Source: Mesorhizobium sp. (GTDB lineage: Bacteria > Pseudomonadota > Alphaproteobacteria > Rhizobiales > Rhizobiaceae). From it: DNA of 64,000 bases. A program made the translations under genes and the position numbers. The stretch covers positions 167,314 to 231,313 of the forward strand of contig JAPUFC010000097.1 in the NCBI GenBank assembly GCA_027492275.1, read 5' to 3'. The notes beneath the pieces were generated by a model, which had not been told where the DNA came from, made no database searches, and saw nothing but the letters and a program-made list of their open reading frames with translations. Positions 10,860-19,508 of the stretch are shown one piece after another (positions within the stretch are counted from its first letter, which is position 1; each line of letters starts with the position of its first letter).

Positions 10860-12629
10860 TCAGTCCGGCGGCGCCTGTCGCAGCGTCGCGGCGGGCGCCG
10901 TCATCGTCCAGCGCAGTCCGGCGGGCGGATAGGCGATGTCGACGACGGCGCGGAAGGCGGCCTGCGCATGCTGATCGATGACGGTCGAGCCGAAGCCCTG
11001 CCGTTCGGACACCACGGGGGCGGGACCCCCGGTCTCGACCCAGCGCAGCGTGATCTGCGCCTCGCCGCTCTCGGACGGTCGCTCCTGCCACGACACGGTG
11101 ACCTTCCCCGCGGGCGCCGACAGCGCGCCGTACTTCACCGCATTGGTCGCCAGCTCGTGGAAGACGAGTCCGAGATTCTGCACCGCCTCCGGCTTCACCG
11201 AGAAATCGTCGCCTTCGATGAGCACGCGCGGCTCGGCGCCGATGAAGGTCTCGACATGGGAGGCCAGCAGCTTGCGCATCGAGACGCCGGACCACTCCTC
11301 CGCCGTCAGCAGGTCGATCGACCGGGCGAGGCCGCCGAGGCGCGACGAAACGGCGGCCTGGTAGTCGGCCACCGTCTCGCTGCGCTTGGCGGTCTGGCGC
11401 ATCATCGCCTGCACGAGCGTCAGCATGTTCTTGGTGCGGTGGACCAGTTCTCGCTGGATGAGGCGCATCTGGTCCTCGGCCTCGCTGCGATCGAAGGAGG
11501 CTTCCGACAAAGCGCGCGCGACCTGGTCGGTCTCGTCGATCGCCGTGTCTGCGGGCGAGACGATCTCGCCGCGCCCCAGCCGCTCGGCCATGTCCGCCAT
11601 GCGGCGGATGGAGCGGCGGATGCGGCGGCTGAGCACGAAGGCGGCGCTGAACGCCGCCGCGATCAGAATCAGCCCGCCGAGCGCCAGCGCCCGCCAGGTG
11701 GTCATCAAGGTGGCCTGCGCCGGCGCGAGCGGCCCCCAGACCACGGCCTTCCAGCCCCAACCCGGCATCCGCGCATAGGCCAGCACGGAGCCGCGAAGCA
11801 GGCCCGGGGCCTGCAGCACTCCGCTGGACTGCGTCATCTGGACGTCGACGTCCTTTAGAATGTTGCCGCCCGCGAAGTCGCCCGCCGCGCTGCTCGACAG
11901 CACGATGCGGCCGGCGCCGTCGATGAGCCCCGCCGACCAGCCGCGCGGCAGACCCTCGGTGGTGATCAGCGTCGTCAGGTCGTTGGCGTCCTGCGTCATG
12001 ATGAGCGCCGCCGCCCCGGAGCTGAGGCCGGGGGGCAGGGGCAGCACGACGTTGAACACCCATTGGCCGCTGGTCGCGCCGAAGAACACGTTGGACACCG
12101 CGATCCGCCGCGACGCCAGCGCGGCATCCAGCGATGTCGTCTCCGAGATCCGGCCGAGCGGCGTGCCGAACGGAACGCGCGTGTTGAGAAGCTGCTGCCC
12201 GTCGGCGCGCACGGCGATGACGTATGTCGAGCCGGAGCGAAGCGCGCCCTGCGTCCGGTTGTGGAAGGGCCGCAGATCCTCCGCGTCGAGCTCGGGCGAG
12301 GTGGCGAGCAGGCGCAGCGTCGTGTGCATGTCCTGGAACTGCCGGCCGACGCTGTTGGCCAGCGCCTGCGCGTCGCGCTCCGTGCGGCGGTCGATCGCGC
12401 TGCGCTCGTTCATCTCCAGCCGCACCAGCAGCACGGTGACGAACAGCAGAATCGGCAACGCGACGGCGGCGACCATCGCGAACAGATAGAAGGCGATCGA
12501 AGGCTTGCGCTTCAACGAAAAGACCGGCCGGTCAGGATGTGGATCGGCCGTCCGACAAAGTTCATCACCGTCAACCTCGATTCGTCGAATTGCCGGACAA
12601 GGGTGAAGAAACGCTACAGAAAAAGCCAC
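10860..12629 (-). CDS. HWE-family sensor histidine kinase, membrane-bound
   Basis: 589 residues if read from GTG 12629; TTG at 12515 (residue 39) is also possible. TM1 is at about 46-69, an extracytoplasmic sensor (probably Cache-like) at 70-310, and TM2 at 314-334. A HAMP-type linker runs to about 375. The phospho-acceptor is H397 in V-H-R-T-K-N-M-L, and the ATPase has H-E-L-A-T-N-A-V-K-Y. The tryptophan-containing R-W-V-E-T-G-G-P marks the HWE subgroup, which in alphaproteobacteria often feeds general stress response regulators. There is no receiver domain and no adjacent response regulator. It is transcribed divergently from the surface/cyclase operon at 12836 and could sense for it; that link is inference. 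Confidence 0.88.
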   Translation of the reverse strand: MAFSVAFLHPCPAIRRIEVDGDELCRTADPHPDRPVFSLKRKPSIAFYLFAMVAAVALPILLFVTVLLVRLEMNERSAIDRRTERDAQALANSVGRQFQDMHTTLRLLATSPELDAEDLRPFHNRTQGALRSGSTYVIAVRADGQQLLNTRVPFGTPLGRISETTSLDAALASRRIAVSNVFFGATSGQWVFNVVLPLPPGLSSGAAALIMTQDANDLTTLITTEGLPRGWSAGLIDGAGRIVLSSSAAGDFAGGNILKDVDVQMTQSSGVLQAPGLLRGSVLAYARMPGWGWKAVVWGPLAPAQATLMTTWRALALGGLILIAAAFSAAFVLSRRIRRSIRRMADMAERLGRGEIVSPADTAIDETDQVARALSEASFDRSEAEDQMRLIQRELVHRTKNMLTLVQAMMRQTAKRSETVADYQAAVSSRLGGLARSIDLLTAEEWSGVSMRKLLASHVETFIGAEPRVLIEGDDFSVKPEAVQNLGLVFHELATNAVKYGALSAPAGKVTVSWQERPSESGEAQITLRWVETGGPAPVVSERQGFGSTVIDQHAQAAFRAVVDIAYPPAGLRWTMTAPAATLRQAPPD

Positions 12630-12835: not shown

Positions 12836-14218
12836 GTGACATTTTCAATTCGCGGCCTCTTGATCACAGTGGCGGTCACGCTCACGGCGGGCGCGGCTTT
12901 CGCCCAGACCGGCCCCGGCGTTCCGCCCAAGACCCTCGTTCCGCGGCTCGTCGCGCACCCGTCGGTCCAGCAGATCCAGGCACGGCGCGACTATCTCTTC
13001 AAGGTCATGCTCAGCCGGCCGGACGACCTCGACGTGGCGTTCGAATATGCCGCGCTGTCGGCCAAGGTCGGTGACCTGGAAGGCGCGATCAGCACGCTCG
13101 AGCGCATGCTGATCTTCGCGCCCGGCCTGCCGCGCCTCCAGCTCGAACTGGGTGTGCTCTACTACCGCCTGTCCGCCTTCGAGACGGCGCGCGGCTATTT
13201 CGAGGCGGCCGTGTCGGGACCCGACGTGCCGCCGGAAGTGAAGATCAACGTGGAGCGCTATCTGTCGCGCATCAACCAGGCCGTCGACCCGGTGCGCTTC
13301 ACCGGCCAGGTGCGGGCCGGCGTGCGCTACCAGACCAACGCCAACCGCGCCCCGACGGATTCGGTCGTCTTCCTGAACGGCCTGCCGTTCACGCTGTCGC
13401 CCAGCTCGACCGGGGACGACGACGGCAATGTGTTCGCCACCGGCGTCTTCCACATTTCGCGCGACCTGCCGTCGCAGGGCGACTCGCTGGAGATCGACCT
13501 CGTCACCTACGGCTCGAAGCAGTTCGAGCGCGAGGAGCTCGACATCGCGCTGGCCGAGCTCACCGTCGGCCCGGCCTTCGATCTCGCCCGCTTCGGCATC
13601 GACAACGCCGCGCTCGGCATCTACGGCATCGCCAACGCCGTCGTGGCGAACGGCAACTGGTATTCGGCCGGCGGCGGCGCCGGCGTTCGCTTCGTGGTCC
13701 GGCCCGACCCGACGCTTTTCCTGCTGACGGCGCTGGAATACCGGCACAAGGAATATTTCAACAGCTCCAGCTCGCCCGTGGCGGAGCTGCGCACCGGCGA
13801 CGAGCTGCGCTCCTACGCGATCGGCAACTACATCGTCGCGCCCGACACCGTGCTGTCCGGCACCGCCTACATCCAGAAGAACTGGGCGCGGCGCGGCTAC
13901 TATTCCTATCTGGAAGGCGGCATTTCGGGCGGTCCGCGCTATTCGTTCAAATCGCCCCTGTCCAGCGACATGCCGAAATGGACCGCGTCTCTGGTCGGCG
14001 GCGCGGTCTGGCGCAAATATGACGGGCCCGATCCCCTGGTCGACCCGAACGAGTCGGAGCGCGACACCGAGCTGTTCATCGGCGGCGGCCTGACGATACC
14101 GCTCAAGGACAATTTCGCGCTGATCACCGAACTCGAGTATCGCAACGTCTCCTCCAACTACGACACGCGCGACTACGACAATTTCTCGGTCTCGCTCAGC
14201 CTGGCGAAGGGGTTCTGA
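12836..14218 (+). CDS. TPR plus outer-membrane barrel protein, DUF560/Slam (type XI secretion)-like
   Basis: 460 residues from GTG 12836, preceded by GGGGGC. A signal peptide ends near A-F-A-Q (residue 24). Residues about 60-146 form TPR-like helices (D-D-L-D-V-A-F-E-Y-A, G-A-I-S-T-L-E-R-M-L). From 153 the chain becomes alternating beta-strands. It opens with Y-Q-T-N-A-N-R-A-P-T-D and an L-P-F-T-L-S segment, as in DUF560/surface lipoprotein assembly modulators (consensus N-x-N-x-A-P), and it ends in phenylalanine like other outer-membrane barrels. Slam/NilB/HsmM proteins (about 480 residues) move TbpB-like cargo to the cell surface. The next gene starts one base after this stop and encodes a TbpB-like exported protein, which supports the assignment. 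Confidence 0.75.
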   Translation: MTFSIRGLLITVAVTLTAGAAFAQTGPGVPPKTLVPRLVAHPSVQQIQARRDYLFKVMLSRPDDLDVAFEYAALSAKVGDLEGAISTLERMLIFAPGLPRLQLELGVLYYRLSAFETARGYFEAAVSGPDVPPEVKINVERYLSRINQAVDPVRFTGQVRAGVRYQTNANRAPTDSVVFLNGLPFTLSPSSTGDDDGNVFATGVFHISRDLPSQGDSLEIDLVTYGSKQFEREELDIALAELTVGPAFDLARFGIDNAALGIYGIANAVVANGNWYSAGGGAGVRFVVRPDPTLFLLTALEYRHKEYFNSSSSPVAELRTGDELRSYAIGNYIVAPDTVLSGTAYIQKNWARRGYYSYLEGGISGGPRYSFKSPLSSDMPKWTASLVGGAVWRKYDGPDPLVDPNESERDTELFIGGGLTIPLKDNFALITELEYRNVSSNYDTRDYDNFSVSLSLAKGF

Positions 14219-14219
14219 G

Positions 14220-17201
14220 ATGGCGACGAATCATCGGACCCCGGGCCTGAAGGCGGCTCTCCTCGCGGGCGCCTCGCTCGCCGCGCTGCTACCGGCCGTG
14301 CCGGCCGCCCACGCCGAGGTCGGCGTCGCCGCCGCCGTCAACCGCGACGCGCGCAGCCGGCCGCCGGGCGCGCCGGTGCGCGTGGTCGCCCTCGGCCAGA
14401 AGGTGGTGTTCAACGAAGAGGTCACCACCGACCCCAACGGCCAGGTGCAGATCCTGCTCCTGGACGGCACCACCTTCACGGTGGGGCCGAACAGCAACAT
14501 CGTGATCGACGAATTCGTCTTCAACCCGAGCACGGGCCAGGCCAAGGTCGTCGCCTCCGTGACCAAGGGCGCGTTCCGCTTCATCGGCGCGCGCACCAGC
14601 GAGACGCCGGGCGGCGCCACGATCGACGCGCCCGTGGGCACGATCGGCGTGCGCGGCGGCTCGGTGATCTGCGGCGTGGTGGGCAGCGAGATCCTCTGCG
14701 CCATGCCCTTCGGCAAGGAGGTCAACGTCAAGGGCAAGGACGGCGTGAACCACCGGCTCTACAAGCCGGGCTGGCTGCTCGCCTTCGACCTGAACGGCAA
14801 TTACATCGAGACGCGCAAGGCCAGCCTGCGCGAGCTCGGCGGGCTCAACGCCGCGCTGCAGGGCAAGGGCAGGGGCGGCGCGATCCGCTCGCCCAACGAC
14901 GGCGTCGTGGCGGGCAGCGAGGTGCCCAACACCAATTCGAACCTGCCGAACACCATCCCGCTCTCGGTGATCCTGGAGGCCGTGAAGGCCAATCCGCGCA
15001 TCGAGCAGGTCGAGAACGACCTCGCCCAGCAGGAGATCCGGCAGGACATCATCGACAACCCGCCGCCGCCCACGACCTTCGCCATGCGGGTGCTGACCGC
15101 GGAGGAAGGCCAGGGCGGCAGCGGCGTCGTCGGCACCACGCCCGAAACCAACCAGGTGCTCACCTTCATCCAGCAGGGCGGCCGGCTGATCTCGGCGGTC
15201 GGCGGATACAACCTGCCAGACTATACGGGTTCGCAGGGCGACACGGTTCCCACCGGCGCCCAGTATCCGCAGCTCGAACAGTTCGACATCGGGCCGGGCG
15301 GCGACGCCCAGGCCTCCTCCGCCAACGGGCCGCTGGAAGGCGTCGCCTATGCCGGCGTCGGCGATTTCGCCGCGTATTTCCTCGGGCAAGCCCCATCCAG
15401 CTCGGGGTTTGCGGCGCGCGCGCTGCCGCAGCCGGCTGATCCCGTCTACGTCATCGTCGGCACGCCGACGCCCGACGCCGTGCAGACCGGCATGCTGAAC
15501 GGCGGCAATATCCGCCGCTACACGCTGACGCCGGATTCGATCCAGGACGGACCCGTTCCCTTCTTCAATTCGCAGGGGTACGGCGCGATCGAGGCGGGTC
15601 CGAACCTGTCCAGCTCGGATTTCTACGTCGTCGAGGGCAGCCAGACGGACTCCCAGGAATCCAAGGGCTTCCAGTCGTGGGTTCACATCGAGGGCACGGG
15701 TCCGAACCAGCGCAGCGCGGTCGGCGTCAATGTCGGCACGATGGCCAGGAACGGCGACGGCCAGCTCGAATTCCTGGGCCAGCGCGGCGGCAGCTACAGC
15801 ACGGCCACCCTGCCGGGCGACGGCGAGGGCGTGCCGGAAACCCCGGAGACCTCGGCCAGCATGGGCGGCCAGATCGGCAGCGTCGCCAGCGGCAGCGGCG
15901 GGCATGTGTTCGGGCCCGACGGCAACCACATGGTGCTGGGCAACCGCACCGGCACGAATGGCGGGGCCTTCCAGGACAGCATATGGGGCGGGTCGACCCA
16001 GGATTTCGGCACGATGCACGTCGCCACGCTGGCCGCCAGGGACCCGCAGTCGAGTTTCACCCGCGAGAGCGGCGAGCGGCGCGGCTTCATGAGCGGCATG
16101 GCCGAGACGACGAACGGCGACACCTACATCCTCACCAATGCGCCGAGCGAAGAGATCGACGGTGGCGATAATGGCTACTCCTATGTCTCGCGGCCCAACC
16201 TGACGATCCGCAAGTCTCCGGACACGAACGAGTTCTCGGCGCAGGCGCAGCTCTACGACGCGGCCGCCCAGTTCGGCGAGGGTACCTATTACGGCACCGA
16301 CGACGAGGTCGATCACTTCCAGATCACCTGGGGCAACTATGGCGAGGGAAGCAATGGCGAGAGCGCCTATGTCGACCAGACCAAGTTCGGCGCCACGCAG
16401 GACAACGACCGGACCAACACGACGCTGACGACCGACAATCGCTACGACTACGATTACGAGAACGACACCTACACCGAGTACGAGAGCGAGACCTACAGCC
16501 ACTCCGCCTCCAAAGGTCCCGACACCTATATCGTGTCCGGCCGGGCGAACCCGGTGGCCGGCTACCAGCACTGCACCTGCGCGTTCATCGACTGGGGCTG
16601 GTGGGGTTCCAAGACGCGGTTCGACGGCAACGCGAACCTGCCCAACGGGCGCACGGACCAGGTGCATATGGGAACCTGGGTGGCCGGCGACATCACGGAC
16701 CCGAACCGGATCTACGGCGAGAACGGCTTCACCGGCACCGCGACCTATGCCGGCACGGCGCTGGGCACGGTGTCGCGCCAGACCGCCGACGGCACGGCCA
16801 CCTACGCGGCCAGCGGCAAGATGGGCATGGAGTTCGATTTCGGCGCCCGCCAGGGCACGCTCTCGATCACCGAGTTCGACAAGGACCCCGGCTACAACCC
16901 CAACGGCTACAACGTGTCCGGCACGATGTACGACGAATCGTCCGGCACCGAGGCGCTGTTCGCCGGCGAATTGCGCAACAATGACGGCTATTATTACGAC
17001 CGGGTGGGCCGCGCCACCGGCGCGTTCGTCGACGACAACGTCACCGGCCAGACGCTCAACCGCAACCCGGCCGCGCCCAACGTGGCGGCCGGCGTGATGG
17101 GCAATTTCGACTTCGGCATCAACGACGCCAAGGTGACCGGCACCTTCGCCGGCGAGATGACCGGGTACGATGCAAGCGGGGGCGGCATCGGGAGCGACTG
17201 A
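14220..17201 (+). CDS. Exported FecR-domain protein with TbpB-like C-terminal barrel, putative secretion cargo
   Basis: 993 residues. A signal peptidase I site lies at A-H-A (30-32), with no lipobox. FecR domain at about 50-150: E-E-V-T-T-D-P-N-G-Q, D-G-T-T-F-T-V-G-P-N-S, I-G-V-R-G-G. A long low-complexity Gly/Asn/Ser region follows, then a Tyr/Asp-rich patch near 738-765 and a striking H784-C-T-C-A-F-I-D-W-G-W-W-G796. From about 800 to 993 the sequence has the strand pattern of TbpB-type barrels: Y-A-G-T-A, F-D-F-G-x-R-x-G-T-L, F-A-G-E-L, G-A-F, and a final G-N-F-D-F-G...G-T-F-A-G-E-M. One base separates it from the barrel gene, so translation is probably coupled. Role unknown; export by the upstream protein is inferred. 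Confidence 0.75.
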   Translation: MATNHRTPGLKAALLAGASLAALLPAVPAAHAEVGVAAAVNRDARSRPPGAPVRVVALGQKVVFNEEVTTDPNGQVQILLLDGTTFTVGPNSNIVIDEFVFNPSTGQAKVVASVTKGAFRFIGARTSETPGGATIDAPVGTIGVRGGSVICGVVGSEILCAMPFGKEVNVKGKDGVNHRLYKPGWLLAFDLNGNYIETRKASLRELGGLNAALQGKGRGGAIRSPNDGVVAGSEVPNTNSNLPNTIPLSVILEAVKANPRIEQVENDLAQQEIRQDIIDNPPPPTTFAMRVLTAEEGQGGSGVVGTTPETNQVLTFIQQGGRLISAVGGYNLPDYTGSQGDTVPTGAQYPQLEQFDIGPGGDAQASSANGPLEGVAYAGVGDFAAYFLGQAPSSSGFAARALPQPADPVYVIVGTPTPDAVQTGMLNGGNIRRYTLTPDSIQDGPVPFFNSQGYGAIEAGPNLSSSDFYVVEGSQTDSQESKGFQSWVHIEGTGPNQRSAVGVNVGTMARNGDGQLEFLGQRGGSYSTATLPGDGEGVPETPETSASMGGQIGSVASGSGGHVFGPDGNHMVLGNRTGTNGGAFQDSIWGGSTQDFGTMHVATLAARDPQSSFTRESGERRGFMSGMAETTNGDTYILTNAPSEEIDGGDNGYSYVSRPNLTIRKSPDTNEFSAQAQLYDAAAQFGEGTYYGTDDEVDHFQITWGNYGEGSNGESAYVDQTKFGATQDNDRTNTTLTTDNRYDYDYENDTYTEYESETYSHSASKGPDTYIVSGRANPVAGYQHCTCAFIDWGWWGSKTRFDGNANLPNGRTDQVHMGTWVAGDITDPNRIYGENGFTGTATYAGTALGTVSRQTADGTATYAASGKMGMEFDFGARQGTLSITEFDKDPGYNPNGYNVSGTMYDESSGTEALFAGELRNNDGYYYDRVGRATGAFVDDNVTGQTLNRNPAAPNVAAGVMGNFDFGINDAKVTGTFAGEMTGYDASGGGIGSD

Positions 17202-17285
17202 GCTCCGGCCGCCCGCGACGAGCCCGGGACCGTGATCTCCCCAGGCGTGCGCGCAGCCTGTATGTGAAGGCCACGCGGGGCGGAC

Positions 17286-19508
17286 ATGCGGGCATTCCTC
17301 AACAATCTGCTGGGTTTGGCGCGGCGCTACCGGCGCCTCGCCATCTGGTCGTCTGGCCTCGTCGCCCTTGCCGTGGCGGTCGGCCTTGCGCTGTCGCCCG
17401 TCAGCCCGCTCGACCGGCTGAACCTGCTGGTCTACGACGGCTATCAGACCCTGCGCCCGCGCCCGGCGGCCGAGAGCGCGGTCGCCGTCATCGACGTGGA
17501 CGACGAGAGCATCGGGCGGATCGGCCAGTGGCCCTGGTCGCGAACCGTGATCGCCGCGATCGTCGACCGGCTGGCCGCCATGGGGGCGGCGTCGATCGCC
17601 TTCGACATCGTGTTCTCGGAGCCGGACCGCACCTCCCCGGCGCTGGCCGTCGCGCAGCTCGAGAAGCAGGGTTTTCAGATCGCCTATCCCGGCAATCCCG
17701 ACGAGCTCGACCACGACAAGGCGCTGGCCGAGGCCTTCGCCCGCGCGCCGGTGGTGGCGGGGCTGGTGATGGCGGAAAGCGGCGCGCCGCCGCCGCGCCC
17801 CAAGGCGGGCTTCGCCTTCGGCGGCGACAACCCGTCCTCCTATCTGCCGGCCTATGGCGGCAGCGTGCGCAATCTGCCGATCCTTGACCAGGCCGCCCCC
17901 GGGCTCGGCGTGTTCAGCTTCCCGCCGGAACGGGACGGCGTCGTGCGGCGCATCCCGCTTCTGTCGCGCTTCGGCAGCCAGCTCTATCCGGGACTTTCGA
18001 TCGAGGCGCTGCGGCTGGCCGTCGGGGCGTCGGGCTACATCGTGCGCAGCACCGGCGCGTCGGGCGAATACGCCACGGGCAACCCCGGCATGACGGCGCT
18101 GAAGGTCGGCGACTTCGAGATTCCGACCGGCGCGGACGGCCGGCTGTGGGTGTACTACTCCGCCAGGCCGACCGCGCCGGTCATTTCCGCCCATCGCGTG
18201 CTGGCGGCCGAGCCGGACGCGGCGGCCGCGCAGGAGGTGGCGGGCCGCATCGTGCTCATCGGCACGTCGGCGGTCGGCCTGCGCGACCTCGTGTCGACGC
18301 CGCTGGCGGCCGGCGTGCCGGGCGTGCTCGTCCACGGCGAGATCGTCGACCAGATCGTGCACAAGCGCTTCCTGACGCGGCCGGACTGGGCGGACGGCAT
18401 GGAACTGGTGCTGGCCGTGGGGCTGTCGCTGCTGCTGCTCGCGCTGCTGCCTTTCCTGTCGACCACGGCCAATGCGGTATCGGCCGCCGCCGCCATGGCC
18501 ATCGCGGTCGGGGCCGGCTGGTACGCCTTCGCGCATGACAGCATGCTCCTGTCTCCCCTGATGACGGCGTTCTGCTGCCTTTTGACCTATGGCGCGGCGT
18601 CTGGCGCGCGGCTGCTGCTGAGCGAGAGCGAGGGCCGCTACATCCGCACCGCGTTCAGCCACTATCTGTCGCCGGTGATGGTGCAGCGGCTGGTCGAAAA
18701 CCCGGAAAGCCTCGTTCTGGGCGGCGAGAACCGCGAGCTGACACTGCTCTTCTGCGACATACGCGGCTTCACCAGCATCTCGGAGACGATGGAGCCGACG
18801 CAGCTCACCGTCTTCCTCAACAACTTCCTGACGCCGATGACCGACGTGCTGATGCGCAACGGCGCGACCATCGACAAGTATATGGGCGACGCCATCATGG
18901 CGTTCTGGAACGCGCCCATCGACATGCCCGACCACCGCAAGCGCGCCGGCGAGAGCGTGCTGGGCATGCTGGCTGCGCTCGAAAAGCTCAACGCGTCGCT
19001 GGAGAGGCCCGTACGCATCGGCGTCGGCCTCAATTCCGGCGTGTGCTGCGTCGGCAATCTCGGCTCGCGCCAGCGCTTCGACTACTCGGCCATCGGCGAT
19101 CCGGTGAATCTCGCCTCGCGGGTCGAGGGGCTGACGAAGCTCTACGGACTGAGCAATCTCCTGACGGCGAGCACTGCCGAAGGACTGGCCGATCTCGCGC
19201 TGGTCGAGGTGGATCTGGTCGCCGTGGTCGGGCGCGACGAGCCGACGGCGGTCTACACGATCCTCGGCGGACCGGAGGTGGCGGCATCCCCGGACTTCCT
19301 GGCCTTTCGCGACGAGCACGGGCTGTTTCTCGCGGCATACCGCGGCAGGCAGTTCGAGGCGGCCGCCGAGCGGCTGCGCGGCCTGCGGCAGGCGGCGCCG
19401 GCCCAGTTCGCCAAGGTCTATGACGAATATGCGCAGCGCCTGGCGATCTTCGCCTCCGAGCCGCCGCCCGGAGACTGGGACGGCGCTTACCATGCCGAGC
19501 ACAAATGA
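17286..19508 (+). CDS. CHASE2-domain adenylate/guanylate cyclase
   Basis: 740 residues. TM1 is at about 17-37. A periplasmic CHASE2 sensor spans about 40-345 (V-A-V-I-D-V-D-D-E-S, then W-P-W-S-R). Three further membrane helices lie between about 375 and 435, and a class III cyclase domain at about 480-660. The metal-binding aspartates D491 (F-C-D-I-R-G-F-T) and D535 (D-K-Y-M-G-D-A) are present. Purine recognition by the lysine in D-K-Y and by I-G-D-P-V-N-L-A-S-R points to ATP. The catalytic set looks complete, so it should make cAMP in response to an extracytoplasmic signal. It follows the FecR-protein gene by 84 bases on the same strand; FecR proteins are often found beside CHASE2 cyclases. 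Confidence 0.92.
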   Translation: MRAFLNNLLGLARRYRRLAIWSSGLVALAVAVGLALSPVSPLDRLNLLVYDGYQTLRPRPAAESAVAVIDVDDESIGRIGQWPWSRTVIAAIVDRLAAMGAASIAFDIVFSEPDRTSPALAVAQLEKQGFQIAYPGNPDELDHDKALAEAFARAPVVAGLVMAESGAPPPRPKAGFAFGGDNPSSYLPAYGGSVRNLPILDQAAPGLGVFSFPPERDGVVRRIPLLSRFGSQLYPGLSIEALRLAVGASGYIVRSTGASGEYATGNPGMTALKVGDFEIPTGADGRLWVYYSARPTAPVISAHRVLAAEPDAAAAQEVAGRIVLIGTSAVGLRDLVSTPLAAGVPGVLVHGEIVDQIVHKRFLTRPDWADGMELVLAVGLSLLLLALLPFLSTTANAVSAAAAMAIAVGAGWYAFAHDSMLLSPLMTAFCCLLTYGAASGARLLLSESEGRYIRTAFSHYLSPVMVQRLVENPESLVLGGENRELTLLFCDIRGFTSISETMEPTQLTVFLNNFLTPMTDVLMRNGATIDKYMGDAIMAFWNAPIDMPDHRKRAGESVLGMLAALEKLNASLERPVRIGVGLNSGVCCVGNLGSRQRFDYSAIGDPVNLASRVEGLTKLYGLSNLLTASTAEGLADLALVEVDLVAVVGRDEPTAVYTILGGPEVAASPDFLAFRDEHGLFLAAYRGRQFEAAAERLRGLRQAAPAQFAKVYDEYAQRLAIFASEPPPGDWDGAYHAEHK

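Follow-up and report, generated by a model that had tools for sequence, protein, structure and literature searches.

A type XI-like outer-membrane gene, a FecR/TbpB-like hybrid and a CHASE2 cyclase as a candidate trans-envelope receptor unit in Mesorhizobium

Why should a gene for a secretion-type outer-membrane barrel stand directly in front of genes for a FecR-domain protein and a membrane-bound cyclase? The question is raised by a stretch of 64,000 nucleotides from Mesorhizobium sp. (assembly GCA_027492275.1, contig JAPUFC010000097.1, positions 167,314 to 231,313; hereafter the window), in which three genes follow one another on the forward strand. The first, orf1 (12836..14218, GTG start, 460 residues), encodes a type XI-like (Slam-like) outer-membrane protein; the second, orf2 (14220..17201, 993 residues), a FecR/TbpB-like hybrid; and the third, orf3 (17286..19508, 740 residues), a CHASE2 adenylate cyclase. 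Only one base lies between orf1 and orf2, as a sequence-only reading of the same DNA had described, and the gap between orf2 and orf3 is 84 bases; the list of open reading frames bears out the coordinates of that reading. The closest sequenced relative, judged by orf1, is Mesorhizobium sp. YM1C-6-2 (67% identity), with Aquibium next. The comparisons below support a real three-gene unit whose pairing is not due to chance. We consider it probable, at a modest level of confidence, that this unit is a modular trans-envelope receptor leading from the cell surface to cyclic AMP (cAMP).

Predicted products of the three genes

The AlphaFold2 model of orf1, built on 63 sequences, has a predicted local distance difference test score (pLDDT) of 90.0 and consists of six helices of tetratricopeptide repeats (TPR) followed by 14 long strands, counted by hand. 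The TPR domain spans residues 44–149 (12965..13282, forward strand; TPR_9 E 6.9e-8), is expected to lie in the periplasm, and corresponds to the N-terminal TPR domain of about 140 residues found in Slam proteins. The barrel spans residues 153–460 (13292..14215, forward strand; DSSP assignment of the model and VIA-align) and has the strand number of Slam and PF04575 barrels. A Pfam search of the window protein returns TPR repeats. Among the 63 members of its family, the SlipAM model PF04575 matches 25 at E≤1 (best 2.4e-8) and TPR_Slam PF24575, the model of the Slam N-terminal TPR domain, matches 24 (best 7.4e-5). Two orf1-type genes directly upstream of a FecR gene reach the PF04575 cut-off of 22 bits (22.1 in G032 and 23.5 in G050, neighbouring pieces included), and the orf1 model in turn picks up a clear PF04575 gene (68 bits, G058) at E 1.5e-36. 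Sequence and model together thus support the assignment of orf1 to the type XI-like (Slam/DUF560) outer-membrane proteins. The Slam/DUF560 features named by the sequence-only reading hold at the level of the fold, while the Slam models match relatives rather than the window protein.

The nearest solved barrels among the VIA-align matches listed are CymA (Z 21.8, 292 aligned residues, 4.0 Å) and OmpG (Z 20.0, 260 aligned, 3.6 Å). An ordinary porin was nevertheless rejected because of the TPR domain, the Slam matches of the relatives and the pairing with a cargo gene. The Foldseek list is headed by BcsC and includes PelBC and PgaA, polysaccharide exporters that also combine TPR with a barrel; the annotated plasmid records give no sign of polysaccharide genes next to the operon. 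No solved Slam structure occurs among the best 50 Foldseek and best 50 VIA-align matches listed for orf1.

The orf2 product begins with a Sec-type signal peptide in which no obvious lipobox could be recognized by eye. It continues with a FecR domain (residues 33–200; 14316..14819, forward strand), whose match to PF04773 (E 2.3e-8; 34.8 bits against a cut-off of 24) is the sole Pfam family in the protein. The AlphaFold2 model (50 sequences, pLDDT 84.8) shows a beta domain followed by a linker with little order, a middle rich in beta structure and a barrel at the C-terminus. In this model, residues 63–216 resemble the periplasmic signalling domain of PupR (6ovk_R; VIA-align Z 14.7, 138 aligned, 3.2 Å), and the FecR domain superposes similarly on 4m0n (Z 14.8, 134 aligned, 2.7 Å). 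An ordinary FecR anti-sigma factor was considered and rejected, since a cytoplasmic sigma-binding domain is missing N-terminal to FecR: in both the reading frame and the model, what precedes the domain is no more than about 32 residues resembling a signal peptide. A LapA-type retention module was likewise rejected. The NCBIfam model retention_LapA scores 17.4 bits, far under its 50-bit cut-off, so that only a weak resemblance to the cell-surface anchoring domain 5ix9 is retained (phmmer E 0.009; Foldseek E 3e-3, 62 columns, root-mean-square deviation 1.3).

The linker (residues 201–285; 14820..15074, forward strand) is largely disordered in the model, with pLDDT below 50 across much of residues 221–276. 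Proline makes up 17.7% of the family columns for residues 221–285, compared with 3–5% elsewhere in orf2, and the region ranges from 70 to 158 residues in the family (median 98). Beyond the beta-rich middle region (residues 286–615; 15075..16064, forward strand) lies the TbpB-like C-lobe (residues 616–993; 16065..17198, forward strand), a handle with a barrel at 790–985. By VIA-align, residues 618–993 match TbpB best (4o49; Z 13.0, 204 aligned, 4.5 Å), with HpuA, fHbp, NHBA and LbpB close behind; the C-terminal domain of NHBA (6cuj_A), for example, gives Z 11.7 over 150 aligned residues at 2.7 Å. By fold, the lobe thus shows the eight-stranded barrel and the handle or pedestal by which the C-terminus of type XI cargo is recognized. 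Within the family, FHBP_C matches 28 of 50 members at E≤1 (best 8.7e-6) and TbpB_B_D matches 17 (best 0.0013). The C-lobe also carries a CxC....WGxWG motif (16572..16607, forward strand), in which C785, C787, W792, G793 and W795 are invariant and G796 is nearly so across the 50 aligned sequences. Sequence and model thus support a FecR/TbpB-like hybrid, as had been proposed from the sequence alone, the TbpB-like part resting on the fold comparison and on the FHBP_C and TbpB_B_D matches of relatives rather than of the window protein. Structure prediction had been named as the check on both proteins, and it indicates neither an unrelated barrel in orf1 nor a fold other than the TbpB type at the C-terminus of orf2.

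The third product was called a CHASE2 cyclase from the outset, and the Pfam matches agree. A CHASE2 domain, expected to be periplasmic, covers residues 28–385 (17367..18440, forward strand; PF05226 E 2.5e-58), and a class III cyclase catalytic domain covers residues 483–651 (18732..19238, forward strand; PF00211, Guanylate_cyc, E 2.3e-18). Hydrophobic stretches occur at 17–43, 368–401 and 420–438, with a weaker one at 88–106. The protein retains D491, D535, K531, D599, N608 and R612, which we take to be the metal-binding, adenine-selecting and transition-state residues of class III cyclases. The orf3 product combines CHASE2 with a complete catalytic and adenine-selecting set, and it is predicted to be an active adenylate cyclase because the catalytic residues of the class are all present. 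The host genome has seven matches to cyclic nucleoside monophosphate (cNMP)-binding domains.

Gene pairing and modular variants

Neighbourhoods were surveyed from named genomes with orf1 as the seed, and the best 80 of 86 relatives were retained; the search alignment was a closer set of seven sequences, a set of twelve being too diverse. A FecR gene lies downstream of orf1 in 79 of these 80 loci. In the sole remaining locus (L117) the contig ends 187 bases past orf1. A CHASE2 cyclase is present in 51 of the 80, mostly downstream and on the same strand, so the genes do co-occur in other genomes, as the sequence-only reading had expected of a functional unit. When 23 loci without a cyclase were followed up, 20 proved to have one elsewhere in the genome at E≤1e-134 and 37–50% identity, with an internal stop in one of the 20; 17 of these 20 unlinked cyclases have no FecR within about 1.5 kb on either side.

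A survey of 249 genomes of the same order, in which presence counts are lower bounds and absences upper limits, gave a similar picture. FecR of the orf2 type is present in at least 103 genomes, orf3 (E≤1e-60) in at least 112 and both in at least 100 (one-sided Fisher p 1.7e-51, a value that ignores relatedness). With a stricter limit on orf3 (E below 1e-90), at least 96 of 99 genomes have the orf2-type FecR, and genomes with a strong orf1 have FecR in at least 42 of 43 cases and orf3 in at least 41 of 43. Approached from the cyclase, 37 of 58 CHASE2 places (61 relatives) are accompanied by a FecR domain at most 6 kb away on the same contig.

Every one of the 32 C-lobe matches listed, from 25 genomes, has an orf1-type gene at most 4.4 kb away on its own strand. 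This pairing may have been favoured by the lobe model, whose seed sequences came from orf1 neighbours. Weak matches to the lobe model elsewhere in the phylum have a PF04575 gene within 4 kb in 5 of 12 genomes (12 of 13 such genomes were searched). For the reverse test, 46 orf1 places were used: the strongest matches, with E 9e-23 as the limit, and G233. Weaker hits and the second fragments of split genes were excluded. A listed FecR is missing within 4 kb at five places, two of which adjoin a C-lobe frame of 707–741 residues.

More than one FecR or FecR-lobe gene lies beside a single orf1-type gene in L095, L132 and L134 and in G089, G132, G167, G249 and G271, as if one channel served several cargos.

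FecR and CHASE2 occur together in four arrangements. The window represents the first, orf1 with a FecR-lobe protein. Others have orf1 with a short FecR (L043–L049, L056, L110), FecR alone, lacking barrel and lobe (L035, L037, L053), or a fused protein of the NsrA type, represented by nine relatives. In the Ensifer sp. PDNC004 plasmid (L034, 5168-6174), the TPR part, a FecR of 220 residues and an intact, divergent cyclase are kept, and the barrel and lobe are absent; this locus may be a trimmed periplasmic system or a product of decay. Mean column conservation is highest in the orf1 TPR domain (0.68) and FecR (0.62) and lower in the orf1 barrel (0.45) and the surface parts (0.38–0.52). This is the pattern expected of a receptor whose inner contact is fixed while its outer face varies.

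Additional evidence concerns possible readers of the output. By phmmer, 27 of the 80 loci have a cNMP-binding protein no more than 4.3 kb away. All 27 are among the 51 loci that contain a cyclase, and none is among the 29 that do not. These figures overstate the contrast, since the 27 come mostly from related rhizobia and contig ends truncate some of the 29. Pfam searches of seven loci confirmed four kinds of cNMP-binding effector – a sulphate-permease-type SulP-STAS-cNMP protein (L085, L096, L120), a glutaminase-STAS-cNMP protein (L097), a patatin-cNMP phospholipase (L128 and L133; also Paracoccus L032) and a CRP-type regulator (L142) – and their nearness supports a cyclic-nucleotide output. 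No such effector was identified beside the window's own operon.

A cyclase tree of 105 sequences, made by a quick method, does not cleanly group linked and unlinked cyclases, and some unlinked ones nest among the linked. The cyclases of two gammaproteobacterial loci from Stenotrophomonas (L133, L135) nest with those of Paracoccus and have a patatin-cNMP neighbour in common with them, which suggests that the whole unit was acquired by horizontal transfer.

A candidate receptor and its alternatives

The receptor reading starts from what the analysis computed: domain make-up, predicted folds, gene pairing, intact cyclase residues and neighbouring cNMP effectors. From co-transcribed genes, orf1 would export the TbpB-like lobes of orf2 to the cell surface or hold them there, and the N-terminal FecR domain would be kept in the periplasm, tied to the exposed lobes by the proline-rich linker. 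FecR, probably together with the orf1 TPR domain, would touch the CHASE2 domain of the inner-membrane cyclase. Binding of a ligand at the surface lobes would alter the FecR–CHASE2 contact and so switch cAMP synthesis, and cNMP-binding effectors would read the cAMP. Co-transcription, surface exposure, the periplasmic position of FecR, its contact with CHASE2, the ligand and the sign of the response are the elements that we infer. The more specific proposal, in which a type XI-like channel serves as a receptor assembly platform, with its lobes exported, FecR periplasmic and a surface ligand coupled to a CHASE2 cyclase and swappable cNMP effectors, seems to us evenly balanced between right and wrong.

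By analogy, the nearest experimental support for a receptor would come from NsrA and CyaK of Sinorhizobium meliloti. At this locus, which we take to be smb20775-cyaK on pSymB (locus tag), FecR, TPR repeats and a beta-barrel region are likewise encoded directly upstream of a CHASE2 cyclase. According to the available text of the two studies, cAMP signalling through CyaK and CyaD1/D2 depends on NsrA, a protein of the outer membrane (PMC7529298, PMC13001267). On the receptor reading, the window's unit would work in the manner of NsrA–CyaK, with a type XI-like channel and its cargo in place of the NsrA barrel. NsrA differs from the window in being one fused polypeptide of about 1200 residues (about 1194–1377 in NsrA and nine relatives), whereas the window has two genes. 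A direct split of NsrA into orf1 and orf2 was considered and rejected, as the hhalign profile comparison aligned the TPR part alone (91 columns, probability 51%), a kind of weak or missing match that does not exclude relation. NsrA gave no match to the C-lobe model of orf2, and the NsrA-linked cyclases form a separate group in the cyclase tree (Shimodaira–Hasegawa-like approximate likelihood ratio test 100).

Several observations weigh against the receptor reading or its type XI part. The window's own orf1 has no match to PF04575 at E≤1, and its orf2 has none to the TbpB/fHbp models at the same limit. The NsrA barrel shows no detectable relation to the orf1 barrel in the profile comparison. 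No C-lobe occurs within 9 kb of up to 19 of the 46 orf1 places, which implies that the barrel also serves where this lobe is missing. A cyclase is absent from the fetched stretch in 29 of the 80 loci, some of them cut by contig ends, and 3 of the 23 genomes searched for an unlinked one lack a strong match (L076, L137 and L131, the last a metagenome-assembled genome labelled Planctomycetota). Nine unlinked cyclases fall in a clade with the FecR-only types. In S. meliloti, the stand-alone FecR protein SMc02177 is described, in the available text, as dispensable for the perception of plant signals (PMC5498481). The accessible parts of the type XI literature describe cargo as displayed or released, and no N-terminal domain retained in the periplasm was found there. 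Finally, the genomes are related and the hidden Markov models were seeded from such loci, so that the counts are not independent.

Which other readings would fit the same genes? The orf1 barrel might itself bind the ligand, as a receptor of the NsrA kind, with orf2 as a periplasmic relay whose C-lobe docks from inside. The orf1 places without a nearby C-lobe are consistent with this, as are the loci in which orf1 is paired with a short FecR (L043–L049, L056, L106, L110 and L126), and the accessible part of the NsrA study regards the barrel as the receptor, it being the only part exposed at the surface (PMC7529298). What speaks for lobes that leave the cell is that a C-lobe of the TbpB/fHbp type is the signature of exported type XI cargo, according to the available text of a recent survey (PMC12282271), that every lobe match listed adjoins an orf1-type gene, and that even the weak lobe matches elsewhere in the phylum have PF04575 neighbours in 5 of 12 genomes. 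We regard a receptor barrel as unlikely.

Slam lipoproteins, the known type XI cargo, cross the membrane whole. If orf2 did the same, FecR included, only a blocked intermediate would touch CHASE2, and cAMP would report on export or on the state of the envelope; a periplasmic intermediate alone would be enough for the contact. This is close to what the sequence-only reading had in mind when it suggested an export system able to report on its cargo, and a ligand receptor assembled by the export channel would fit better. The FecR–CHASE2 pairs with neither barrel nor cargo lobe nearby (L035, L037, L053) imply that export is not what the cyclase senses in general, strong orf3 matches are accompanied by an orf2-type FecR almost throughout (at least 96 of 99 genomes), and a long proline-rich linker between FecR and the lobes suits a bridge. 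Export reporting is in our judgment slightly less credible still than a receptor barrel. Least probable of all, we think, is a shared operon with no physical coupling, in which orf1 and orf2 form a type XI nutrient-capture system and the cyclase is merely co-regulated. TbpB-like lobes do suggest ligand capture, and the 29 loci without a cyclase in the fetched stretch point the same way. However, the FecR domain folds like a signalling domain and ranks with the most conserved regions, 20 of the 23 genomes searched for an unlinked cyclase keep one, and the cNMP effectors go with the cyclase loci. As a whole, the observation made in the sequence-only reading is confirmed and its interpretation partly supported.

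Known systems and flanking genes

The receptor reading combines elements that are familiar separately. A cluster published for Campylobacterota joins a CHASE2 cyclase to a TPR protein, a phosphodiesterase and an outer-membrane protein that contains FecR (PMC9239204). It includes the same three kinds of part as the window, compared here by description only, and in the available text the authors infer a single signalling pathway; that text is silent on any type XI or TbpB-like element. The window's cyclase has no neighbour that was identified as a phosphodiesterase. The type XI proteins Slam, NilB and HrpB share with orf1 an N-terminal TPR domain and a 14-strand barrel, as far as the accessible text describes them (PMC8406197), and their cargo, encoded next to them, shares with orf2 a C-terminal eight-stranded barrel (PMC12282271, available text). 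What sets the window apart is a cargo with FecR at its N-terminus and the link of the unit to a CHASE2 cyclase. Surface signalling of the FecI–FecR and PupR kind resembles the window in the PupR-like fold of the N-terminal domain of orf2; in contrast, orf2 begins with a signal peptide instead of a cytoplasmic anti-sigma domain, and its partner is a CHASE2 cyclase. In the Burkholderia BiofilmReg operon, a FecR-domain protein (LysM-FecR) is encoded beside a CHASE2 receptor, but the output there is a histidine kinase with a response regulator, and the available text names no outer-membrane part (PMC5192318).

The association of FecR with CHASE2 is already in print, in the Campylobacterota cluster, in NsrA–CyaK and in the Burkholderia FecR gene with a CHASE2 kinase. 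The sequence-only reading had known no description of the three-part arrangement, which holds, in the literature searched, for the type XI part; a cluster of FecR, TPR and CHASE2 had been described in Campylobacterota (PMC9239204, as available) and in NsrA–CyaK. The apparently new part is the type XI-like module tied to signalling, for which the literature searched gave no precedent: no work was found that joins type XI, Slam, DUF560, T11SS or TbpB with FecR, CHASE2 or a cyclase, and the main text of the 2025 survey of type XI cargo contains neither 'FecR' nor 'cyclase'. In its available text, type XI secretion is characterized only in host-associated bacteria, as the display or release of binding proteins (PMC12282271). 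A branch wired to a second messenger, if real, would give type XI secretion a new role. The sensory input of CHASE2 was called unknown in 2016, in the accessible part of that paper (PMC5192318), and the close partnership with FecR names a concrete, testable one. The design also suggests how a Gram-negative cell could sense a large ligand that does not enter and answer by cAMP, as rhizobia do via NsrA.

The gene upstream of the operon, divergent from it (10863-12629, reverse strand), encodes a histidine kinase of the HWE type, in which Pfam finds a weak match to dCache. In 6 of the 80 loci (L105, L108, L114, L115, L120 and L129), a gene for an NHLP-type bacteriocin secretion protein (HlyD) lies 0–19 bases from the unit and is adjoined by the matching ATP-binding cassette (ABC) exporter. 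For L105 the HlyD protein is matched by NCBIfam, and the same annotation occurs in the Ensifer (L034) and Shinella records.

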